A stretch of 20,028 nucleotides of DNA from a virus. Made by a program: the position numbers and the translations under genes. The notes beneath the pieces are model-generated. The model searched no databases and was not told the DNA's origin. It worked only from the letters and a program-made list of their open reading frames with translations. Below are positions 12,045 to 20,028 of this stretch, piece by piece; position 1 is the first letter of the stretch; each line of letters begins with the position of its first letter. Location: positions 1-20,028 of the IMG/VR virus record IMGVR_UViG_3300017724_000136. The stretch is one strand, 5' to 3'.

Positions 12045-12063
12045 AGAGCGATTTTCACGCTCT
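12045..12063 (+). other. Short hairpin just upstream of the promoter-like element
   Basis: AGAGCG (12045-12050), loop ATTTTCA, CGCTCT (12058-12063). On the + strand the stem is followed by an A-run rather than a T-run, so it is not a textbook terminator, although it sits where one would be expected, 17 bases after the acidic protein's stop. A role as a weak terminator or mRNA end-stabiliser is possible. Confidence 0.4.
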
Positions 12064-12130
12064 AAAAAAAAGTGAGAAAAAAGTGAAATAGGGTATTGAC
12101 ATGCCTGTCCGGATAGCTTTCTATCTTCTA
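12064..12130 (+). promoter_or_regulatory. Promoter-like element with phased A-tracts and GTGA motifs
   Basis: An eight-A run then GTGA (12072-12075), a second A-run then GTGA (12083-12086), 11 bases apart, precede TTGACA at 12096-12101. Nearly the same arrangement recurs at 19984-20020, so it is a conserved module. A -10 box is unclear: TTCTAT (12119-12124, 17-base spacer) is a weak match, and TATCTTCT (12122) weakly resembles a Bacteroidota TAnnTTTG box. An inverted repeat GATAG-CTTT-CTATC (12112-12125) overlaps this zone and could be an operator, and another imperfect one lies at 12133-12153 in the presumed leader. The A-tracts would act as an UP-like or curved-DNA element. It precedes the replication unit starting at 12177. 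Confidence 0.6.
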
Positions 12131-12176
12131 CATCGAAGCGATTCCCGCCTCGAACCTAACACACAAAAAACACGAC

Positions 12177-12500
12177 ATGAAAAACCTAAACAAATTCCAA
12201 GCCTTAGTAAAAGAAGCTAACGAACTAGCTAAAGAAAACAATAGACTAGATCGCTTGCTCACAGACGCTAAGGTTCCAAACGATGAAAATTGGTCAAACC
12301 ACGAGGCAGTTCGCGCTTACTACGATCACGATAAGCAAGCCTACATGGAAGTCGAAGGAGGACAAATCATCTGCGAATCTGCAGTCGCAATCACAGATCT
12401 TTCATACTACTTTAAGCACAACTTCTACTTTCTAAAAAACGGAGCAAAACGCCGCAGTCGTTTCTCTAAAGCAAAAGCTCTCGAAGCTCTCCAAGACTAA
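12177..12500 (+). CDS. Hypothetical protein, 107 aa, first gene of the downstream unit
   Basis: No family is recognised. The first 35 residues predict a charged helix (KFQALVKEANELAKENNRL). The rest contains several Tyr/Phe residues (ITDLSYYFKHNFYFLKNG) and a basic C-terminal part (GAKRRSRFSKAKALEAL). There is no signal peptide. It is the first gene after the promoter-like element, a place where phages often keep host-takeover genes, but nothing in the sequence proves this. The leader is A-rich (ACAAAAAACACGAC before ATG) with no Shine-Dalgarno. Its flanks are shared with the next gene: a similar A-rich leader ending at the ATG and a near-identical segment after the stop. Confidence 0.6.
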   Translation: MKNLNKFQALVKEANELAKENNRLDRLLTDAKVPNDENWSNHEAVRAYYDHDKQAYMEVEGGQIICESAVAITDLSYYFKHNFYFLKNGAKRRSRFSKAKALEALQD

Positions 12501-12542
12501 TCTTCAACACAGTTTTCGGATCTGCTCAAAACCGAATTTTTT
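12498..12542 (+). repeat. Stop-proximal direct repeat, copy 1
   Basis: Starts at the TAA of the 107-aa gene. A 26-bp core at 12511-12536 (begins AGTTTTCGG, ends AAAACCGAA) is identical to 12952-12977. It can fold as TTCGG (12515-12519) pairing with CCGAA (12532-12536), followed by a run of six T (12537-12542), so it may work as a weak terminator or attenuator. Bases between stop and core also match copy 2 except for a few positions. Confidence 0.85.
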
Positions 12543-12572
12543 AACCTAATCAAAAACCTAAAAAACACGATC

Positions 12573-12941
12573 ATGAAAAACACTACATCACTATTCGGCA
12601 AACGCCCAGATCCAATCGTCTTAACAGAAAAGTTGAGAGTCGAAAAATCTATTGAGGGCAAAGCACTATATCTCAACTACACAATGGGAACCGATACCAA
12701 TGCGTATGAAGTCGTTCACGTTTCTCCTAGCGGCAAAACAGTTTTCGCAAAGGAAATGGAAGTGAATCATAAGAAAGGCGCGGAGCCTTATTCGCAAAGC
12801 TGGGAGTTTACTTCTTCAAATCGTCTCGGAGTAACGAAGTTCACTCTACGCAAAAATGGAGCCTTCAGACAGGTCGGAATGTCTTGCGGATATGCGAGAC
12901 CATCTCACTCTCCTAGACATCACTACGACTACAGCTTCTAA
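12573..12941 (+). CDS. Hypothetical protein, 122 aa
   Basis: No family is recognised. The protein looks beta-rich with basic patches, ends in a His/Tyr-rich tail (ARPSHSPRHHYDYSF) and lacks membrane segments. Alternating strands such as KALYLNYTMGTDTNAYEVVH and KFTLRKNGAFRQVGMSCG suggest a small beta-sandwich or OB-like fold, which is only an impression. The leader (CTAAAAAACACGATC before ATG) closely resembles that of the gene upstream, and both proteins start MKN, yet the remaining sequences show no similarity. The segment after its stop repeats that after the upstream gene. The pair therefore looks like two different inserts in the same flanking frame. Confidence 0.6.
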   Translation: MKNTTSLFGKRPDPIVLTEKLRVEKSIEGKALYLNYTMGTDTNAYEVVHVSPSGKTVFAKEMEVNHKKGAEPYSQSWEFTSSNRLGVTKFTLRKNGAFRQVGMSCGYARPSHSPRHHYDYSF

Positions 12942-12984
12942 TCCTCAAACCAGTTTTCGGATCTGCTCAAAACCGAACTTTTAA
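12939..12984 (+). repeat. Stop-proximal direct repeat, copy 2
   Basis: Starts at the TAA of the 122-aa gene and runs to just before the ATG of the endolysin gene at 12989. The core 12952-12977 is identical to 12511-12536; the T-run is CTTTT instead of T6. Because it abuts the endolysin start, it may affect transcription into or translation of that gene. Confidence 0.85.
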
Positions 12985-12988
12985 TTTT

Positions 12989-13351
12989 ATGAATATCATG
13001 ACTCTCATTCTCGCTCTCATCGCCGTCGAATCTAATGGCAACGACAACGCCATCGGCGACGACGGTCTCGCCTACGGATGCCTACAGATTCACGCCGCCT
13101 ACGTCGCAGACGCTGCGGAGTATGCCGGCGAAGACTGGACGCATGAGGACGCCTTCGATCGCGAGACATCGATCAAGATCGTTCTCGCTTACATGGATCG
13201 CTACGCTACCGAGCGACGCATCGGAAGGACTGTGACGATCGCAGACGTAGCTCGCATCCACAACGGCGGTCTCAACGGCTACAAAAAGCAAGCCACCCTC
13301 AAATACTGGAAGAAGGTAAAGGCAGAACTAATCTCTCGCGGAGCCTTATAA
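12989..13351 (+). CDS. Endolysin, transglycosylase/lysozyme-like, 120 aa
   Basis: Residues 11-34 read IAVESNGNDNAIGDDGLAYG then CLQI, matching the lytic transglycosylase (SLT) signature with catalytic Glu14 in an ES motif and the following G-x-x-Q-I. Near the C-terminus, ARIHNGGLNGYKKQATLKYW matches the second signature, where R-I-x-N-G-G lines the sugar groove. The enzyme would cleave peptidoglycan glycan strands at the end of infection. The hydrophobic N-terminus contains the catalytic Glu, so it is not a removable signal peptide, and export presumably needs a holin. It is only a catalytic domain, with no wall-binding module. It lies about 3 kb from the holin candidates and within the replication-type unit. 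A virion-entry role cannot be excluded. Confidence 0.8.
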   Translation: MNIMTLILALIAVESNGNDNAIGDDGLAYGCLQIHAAYVADAAEYAGEDWTHEDAFDRETSIKIVLAYMDRYATERRIGRTVTIADVARIHNGGLNGYKKQATLKYWKKVKAELISRGAL

Positions 13352-13390: not shown

Positions 13391-14005
13391 ATGGCTATAC
13401 TAACGGTAAAAACAGAATCCTCTAGCGGATTCACTATCGACGAGCTAGCTCCTTCCGGAGACTTCGTCGTCACATGCCTAGAGATCGCAGACGAGTTCGG
13501 CGTCACTAGGAAGAAGTATCAATCAGAGGAAGAGGAGCAGATCGATGTCACTCGCTTTCTCTTCGGCTTCAAGGCGCAGGACGGTCGTCTCTACAAGGTG
13601 CAGACCTTCGAGATGAAGATCTCCGGCTCTCCTAAGTCTACGCTCTACAAGTTCCTCTCTAGCTGGCTAGGGCAGGCTCCGGACTACGGCTGGGACTATT
13701 GCACTCTCAAGGGTCAAGGAGCGGTCGTATCGATCGAGCATGTAGTCTCACAGATGGGAACTACATATCCGAAGATCACTCGGATCTCTCCGGCGAAGAC
13801 GAGCCTCGCAGACTACTCTGCTCAGATCGTTCCCGTAGATCAGTTCGGAGCTGTAGCGGCTCCTGCGGCTCCCGTAGCTCCTGCGGCTCCTGTAGCTCTT
13901 CCTGCTAGCGTAGGCAAGGCTCTATCATCGGTAGGAGCGACAGTCGCTTCTGCTCCCGTAGCTTGGACTCCAGAGACAGGCACACAGGCAGACTGTCCGT
14001 TCTAA
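13391..14005 (+). CDS. Putative single-stranded DNA-binding-like protein, 204 aa
   Basis: The first 140 residues form a mixed beta domain with aromatics (VTRFLFGFKAQDGRLYKVQT and LSSWLGQAPDYGWDYCTLKG). An Ala/Pro/Val-rich linker follows (about 153-180, coded by near-repeats of GCTCCTGCGGCTCC at 13857-13893), and the chain ends TQADCPF. A flexible linker with a short terminal peptide ending Pro-Phe is the build of bacterial and phage SSBs, whose tips recruit replication proteins, although this tip is much less acidic than the classic one. Context (nuclease, DnaA-like, helicase-primase) supports a replication role. The leader is A-rich with no Shine-Dalgarno. The OB fold is not proven by sequence. 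Confidence 0.55.
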   Translation: MAILTVKTESSSGFTIDELAPSGDFVVTCLEIADEFGVTRKKYQSEEEEQIDVTRFLFGFKAQDGRLYKVQTFEMKISGSPKSTLYKFLSSWLGQAPDYGWDYCTLKGQGAVVSIEHVVSQMGTTYPKITRISPAKTSLADYSAQIVPVDQFGAVAAPAAPVAPAAPVALPASVGKALSSVGATVASAPVAWTPETGTQADCPF

Positions 14006-19948: not shown

Positions 19949-19976
19949 AGCCTCTCGCGAAATCGAGAGGCTTTTT
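19949..19976 (+). terminator. Intrinsic terminator closing the replication unit
   Basis: AGCCTCTCG (19949-19957), loop CGAAAT, CGAGAGGCT (19964-19972): a perfect 9-bp GC-rich stem followed by TTTT (to 19976). This is a classic Rho-independent terminator, 26 bases after the last stop codon. Confidence 0.92.
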
Positions 19977-19983
19977 AGTATCT

Positions 19984-20028
19984 AAAAAAAAGTGAATAAA
20001 AAGTGAATTAGCTATTGACTCGCCTCAA
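19984..20028 (+). promoter_or_regulatory. Second copy of the promoter-like element (truncated by window end)
   Basis: It repeats the 12064 element: an eight-A run, GTGA (19992-19995), A-run, GTGA (20003-20006) at the same 11-base spacing, then TTGACT at 20015-20020, one base closer to the second GTGA than in copy 1. The -10 region lies beyond the window. Its position straight after the terminator supports a promoter for a downstream unit. Confidence 0.6.

Follow-up and report, generated by a model that had tools for sequence, protein, structure and literature searches.

An exchangeable small-gene slot with a putative 3′ pseudoknot in uncultured phages

In T4-type phages, promoter early stem loop (PeSL) cassettes place a conserved regulatory sequence with an RNA structure in the gaps between small early genes and shuffle these genes between related phages (Arbiol 2010; Comeau 2014; both via PMC4503421). 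As far as that account goes, PeSL shuffling is the nearest known system to the locus analysed here, in which conserved flanks likewise enclose variable small genes that are shuffled among related phages. Measured against PeSL as described there, the locus differs in several respects. Its promoter bounds the slot on one side and its RNA structure on the other, instead of both forming one composite motif in the same gap; its phages are not T4-type myoviruses, the nearest named ones being P8625 for a gene of the analysed DNA and Flavobacterium phage 11b for the terminase of a contig group termed G1; its structure appears to be a mini pseudoknot, mostly without a U-tract, instead of a stem-loop; and there are one to three element copies per genome, one of the two elements (element B) recurring across many phage groups. 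Because two defining features of PeSL are lacking, we do not class the slot as PeSL, although it appears to work like it.

Three other kinds of element invite comparison. Integron gene cassettes also consist of a gene followed by a structured conserved site (attC), with a single promoter in front; unlike them, the slot came with no integrase in the records searched, its site is far shorter and a putative pseudoknot, and the coding part alone is exchanged. Intrinsic terminators and 3′ stabilising hairpins share with the slot elements a position shortly past the stop codon, and in some relatives (L032, L033, L020–L024) that place is taken by a terminator or by a plain hairpin; the slot elements, however, have short weak stems, tertiary pairing and a conserved loop, and the U-tract is usually missing in element B. 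Small RNAs of the H-type pseudoknot class include the preQ1-I and SAM-II riboswitches, the T4 gene 32 leader and ToxI. The slot elements have the same H-type topology, and element A the same A-rich third loop, but they are only 22–27 nt long, lie 3′ of a gene and match no Rfam family.

The DNA analysed, hereafter the window, is the 20,028-nt virus record IMGVR_UViG_3300017724_000136. Among named phages, Verrucomicrobia phage P8625 is nearest for one of its genes (66% identity, 131-aa protein), which makes a marine Verrucomicrobia bacterium the probable host. Apart from the features in Table 1, the window encodes a PD-(D/E)XK exonuclease and a RuvC-like resolvase (Pfam/PHROG), and tandem repeats lie inside two of its genes (18-bp period at 697–813, in the gene for a 502-aa protein; 9-bp period at 13846–13898, in that for a 204-aa protein). 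A sequence-only reading had described the genes at 12177 and 12573 as encoding dissimilar proteins that both begin MKN; the shared start is present, and protein comparison detected no similarity. Slot gene 1 has no Pfam match and no significant PHROG match, and its structure model is poor (pLDDT 51). For slot gene 2, the weak PHROG match is to phrog_33370, a function-unknown family, and the predicted small beta protein matched uncharacterised phage proteins only, with no match in the PDB. The predicted secondary structures of the two proteins differ, as far as the poor model of gene 1 can be used. Most slot genes likewise gave no convincing Pfam/PHROG match.

Table 1 Features of the slot region in the window
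Feature	Position	Strand	Details
A-rich block TCTAAAAAAAAGTGAGAAAAAAGTGAAATAG upstream of the putative promoter	12052..12091	+	direct repeat, 83%; second copy 19972-20011
Left border	12096..12142	+	-35-like TTGACA 12096-12101; 30 nt on, ATCGAAGCGAT 12132-12142
A-rich leader of gene 1	12153..12176	+	sequence comparison
Slot gene 1	12177..12500	+	open frame, 107 aa; 64% nt identity in L013, flanks there 93-98%
Element A copy 1, proposed mini pseudoknot	12510..12536	+	S1 12510-12512/12522-12524; S2 12515-12519/12532-12536; 9 nt past gene 1 stop
T-run and A-rich leader of gene 2	12537..12572	+	sequence comparison
Slot gene 2	12573..12941	+	122 aa, predicted small beta protein; two unrelated genes instead in L005/L007
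Element A copy 2, right slot border	12951..12977	+	9 nt past gene 2 stop
Conserved lysozyme/transglycosylase-like gene 3′ of the slot	12989..13351	+	Pfam Destabilase, SLT

Comparison among close relatives shows a promoter-like leader followed by one or two small genes that are swapped while leaders and trailers stay constant. With the lysozyme/transglycosylase-like gene as anchor, 60 related loci were collected, and the comparison of the slot across related phages that the sequence-only reading had proposed revealed varying gene content between constant flanks. Between the window and L012, the flanks are 96–100% identical and gene 2 only 69%; in L013 it is gene 1 that diverges (Table 1), gene 2 being 99% identical. 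L013 and L015 in turn share flanks and gene 1 at 99–100%, and L015 carries two unrelated genes (67 and 122 aa) in the place of gene 2. Each replacement ends at the flanks: on the left the leader, which reaches to the start codon, and on the right the trailer, which begins at the stop codon. Genes 1 and 2 do not always co-occur in these relatives; their constant association in the same order had been named as evidence against exchange. A parallel case is G1, eight related Bacteroidota-type contigs whose terminase is nearest to that of Flavobacterium phage 11b (56%). The genes before (144 aa) and after (63 aa) the slot are constant there and the slot gene (50–92 aa) is different in all eight, with median pairwise nucleotide identities of 91% for the upstream gene, 81% for the leader, 50% (unrelated) for the slot gene and 92% for the element, here element B, with the downstream gene. 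Swaps of a similar kind were seen in three more groups (G2, G4 and G8), and 24 locus pairs have related slot genes and no other detected protein in common, some of these loci coming from fragments of related phages. Segment identities thus demonstrate the exchange that had been claimed; we infer that it proceeds, as was also claimed, by homologous recombination.

At the left border, the A-rich leaders proved as described, with ACACGAC-ATGAAAAAC at 12177 and ACACGATC-ATGAAAAAC at 12573; the two are 78% alike across 23 nt. That the slot lies directly behind a promoter is plausible from the TTGACA and the 30-nt spacing, which are kept in relatives, but a good -10 hexamer is missing and a generic promoter scan was silent at the site. 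In the relatives, TTGAC-N29/30-ATCGAAGCGA stands ahead of the slot with differing spacer sequence, at most three times per contig, and this fixed distance suggests that the ATCGAAGCGAT block lies about at the transcription start. The A-rich block farther upstream would be a promoter-upstream element. The 72-nt gap that separates the two slot genes contains no TTGAC-N30-ATCGAAGCGA. The same A-rich GTGA block recurs at the very end of the window (19972–20028), where it stands between a terminator-like hairpin on its 5′ side and TTGACT; a second small-gene unit of this type probably starts there and is cut by the contig end. Further on in the L004 genome, a promoter of the same kind is accompanied by small genes with a hairpin between them.

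Two further leader types were observed. In eight loci (L093, L096, L100, L105, L106, L107, L151 and L155), a Bacteroidetes-type promoter, TTTG-N19-GATATTTG, lies in the gap preceding the slot gene. Behind it comes what may be a leader hairpin, ACCG..CGGT, with the compensatory ATCG..CGAT in L151; the slot mRNA of the eight loci may be structured at both ends. Six others (L090, L102, L114, L116, L131 and L172) have differing slot genes with a common in-frame upstream extension like MFTYICDVINYSLNKGTAM, so that the conserved leader there forms an open reading frame fused with that of the slot gene.

At the right border, the sequence-only reading had pointed to an identical 26-bp core inside a longer similar segment running from the stop codon. 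The exact 26-mer is indeed found at 12511–12536 and 12952–12977, within trailers (12497–12541 and 12938–12982) that each start at the stop codon and are 91% identical in a gap-free alignment of 45 nt; with up to three mismatches allowed, the window contains two matches to the 26-mer, whereas 100 shuffles yielded none. The metagenome search proposed for this core located exact copies in seven stretches of uncultured viral contigs. Four of these (L004–L007, the same as L012–L015) are close relatives with the same neighbours, and a more distant relative (L010/L023) has one copy with other genes around it; L026 carries two copies of a variant core. A small gene in an AT-rich contig (L008/L009) and another in L075 likewise have the core behind their stop codon, and each of the two is the first small gene of a region divergent from the structural genes. 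Protein comparison found in common between the window group and L009 only a primase domain (33% over 180 aa), between the window group and L075 only one small acidic protein (33–37% over about 45 aa), and between L009 and L075 nothing; by this measure, L008/L009 and L075 are two phage lineages distant from the window group. The presence of the core in such distant phages indicates that the flanks are not merely leftover homology and supports the trailer core, termed element A, as a conserved RNA element. Six matches to element A in 84,980 bacterial genomes lacked the element context and look like chance, and there was no real match in named phages or plasmids. The ends of the 40-kb contig that contains L008 and L009 (IMGVR_UViG_3300020043_004132) are inverted copies of each other, 99.7% identical over the 2,391 bases compared, and are either an assembly artefact or real inverted repeats.

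The 11 copies of element A fit an H-type pseudoknot in which one helix joins CAG to a CUG in the loop and the other joins UUCGG to CCGAA, with 98.8% of cells paired. One compensatory pair, UA to GC, occurs in S2 (L026 and L075), and S1 is invariant in the 10 distinct rows, so the first helix remains tentative; element A is likely, on this comparative evidence, to be a mini H-type pseudoknot. In the window group, the element combines a weak stem with a T-run. A plain-terminator reading of the core is disfavoured, as the simple hairpin folds no more stably than shuffles.

In several relatives of the window, the place of the core after slot genes is taken by element B (GGGGNGNAGCATCCTACACTNC, 22 nt), of which there are at least about 160 distinct copies among the viral-contig matches listed. 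Its loci were retrieved by a pattern scan of viral contigs and by a second scan limited to A, C or T at position 1, which tested the predicted pairing of positions 1 and 14. Among the 161 matches listed, this pair is G:C in 112, A:U in 46, and C:G, A:C and U:U in one each. All 161 have a paired S2, in which eight different stem pairs occur; this figure is favourable in that most loci were fetched with patterns fixing part of the stem. The pair 7–21 occurs as CG, AU, GC and UA. Moreover, the covariation score of 84 distinct rows was reached by 0 of 500 shuffles. Covariation is therefore present in both helices, as expected of an H-type pseudoknot, and the switch at 1/14, the pairing of S2 and the shuffle result together make a 22-nt mini H-type pseudoknot a well-supported model for element B. 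In 140 of 152 matches listed, an open frame stops 6–17 nt before the element begins, against 239 of 7,900 random positions (3%); the interval from the upstream stop varies little (IQR 7–11), the one to the downstream start widely (IQR 10–31). Alignment evidence thus places a pseudoknot about 9 nt past the stop codon, firmly for element B and as a likely fold for element A. G makes up 1% of the 8 bases before element B and 4% of the 12 after it. At least six T in eight were counted in 29 of 158 copies listed, and since most copies have no U-tract, element B is no usual terminator and its equivalence to terminators rests on position. No real match was found in 50,697 named phage records or 72,556 plasmids; Rfam covariance models gave nothing at or above the gathering score, the sub-threshold matches (E 0.8–0.9) lying on the opposite strand or elsewhere, and text searches of the literature found no description.

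Elements A and B and hairpins also alternate behind homologous genes. One set of homologous slot genes is followed by element B in L016 and by element A in L010 and L026; another carries A in L026, and in L032 and L033 it carries B. The gene 2 family has trailer A in the window and an intrinsic terminator in L032 and L033. Behind one promoter in L261, three genes come in succession: the first has a plain hairpin, the second a B variant, and the third lies before a terminator and the next promoter. This interchangeability suggests that the trailers have a role in common, as RNA structures on the 3′ side of the gene. Gaps between slot genes in L020, L022, L024 and L263:756–820 contain yet another recurring trailer, the third, which is the hairpin GTCTCGCTCGCACGACGCGGGCGAGAC and has no T-run.

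With moderate confidence, we interpret the locus as a PeSL-like slot for exchangeable small genes at the head of a phage operon, whose right border would be a 3′ RNA structure acting on the mRNA of the upstream gene. During co-infection, homologous recombination within the conserved flanks would swap the coding parts; RecT, considered as the enzyme for it, was not found in the 11 records searched. In the mRNA, the pseudoknot would serve as the 3′ structure of the small gene, through 3′-end stabilisation or through transcript attenuation or processing; it would stand just ahead of the point where the terminating ribosome halts and be replaceable by terminator-type hairpins, and the tight stop distance fits a structure just beyond that ribosome's reach. 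An incoming gene would have to land between leader and 3′ structure for expression, which would keep the flanks conserved and let them double as recombination anchors. The nearly invariant loop of element B counts against this interpretation, as it suggests a specific binding partner that a mere 3′ roadblock would not need. So do the single covarying pair of element A, the unremarkable stability of its simple hairpin and the scarcity of U-tracts behind element B.

The same loop is compatible with a cis regulator in the same exchange slot, the pseudoknot being a protein- or ligand-binding site, or an RNA acting on RNA polymerase (antitermination), for the remaining operon. It is also favoured by the gap, large enough for a promoter (median 127 nt), that usually lies ahead of the gene before element B, and by the occurrence of the element once per 30–44 kb contig in the longer records tested, with further genes downstream. 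We nevertheless consider this rather unlikely, since it is the distance to the downstream start that varies widely and not that to the upstream stop, the downstream genes differ among phage groups, and terminators and plain hairpins take the place of element B. Antitoxin RNAs of ToxN-kind type III toxins are pseudoknots. A small pseudoknot with an invariant loop, carried by phages of very different GC (0.25–0.56), might similarly be released as a small trans-acting decoy or inhibitor of a host factor, for example such a toxin; a position locked to the stop codon, the usual single copy per genome in place of repeats, and substitution by hairpins of other sequence make this improbable.

The gene, the element right after its stop (one per cassette) and the promoter in front are also what site-specific recombination of the integron-cassette style, with an attC-like site, would produce. 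It is very improbable here: neither a tyrosine nor a serine recombinase (integrase/resolvase; PF00589 for tyrosine integrase) was detected in 11 records of 20–44 kb, some of them fragments; homology spans the leader to the start codon as well as the trailer, with no fixed crossover point inside the element; and homologous genes are served by different elements. Two adjacent genes in the same flanks could stem from one gene that was duplicated in tandem along with its flanks, the coding part diverging later, but the lack of similarity between the proteins, the unrelated genes in the slot of relatives and the presence of the element in distant phages leave this origin scarcely credible. Known recoding sites have a stop-to-pseudoknot spacing resembling that of the slot elements, and gene 1 of the window could read through in frame into gene 2. 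Stop-codon readthrough or frameshifting driven by the pseudoknot is still hardly to be expected, given that the stop-to-element distance is even modulo 3 (56/49/42) and that in-frame extensions are short (median 16 codons).

More tentatively than the slot itself, we suggest that elements A and B could form a new class of mini-pseudoknots (22–27 nt). Uncultured phages whose hosts belong to several bacterial phyla would use them as the standard 3′ module of a first-gene slot that is hypervariable and carries fast-exchanged anti-host or counter-defence genes, for which the element would be a sequence tag. Strong covariation supports element B as a 22-nt RNA structure, which is locked to the stop codon in many uncultured phage groups and has no match in Rfam, named phages or the literature searched. 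It marks slots in which small genes of unknown function turn over fast, and phages may keep anti-defence genes in such places, for which the element offers a simple search string. The slot itself is a testable case of gene swapping in which the expression signals are kept.
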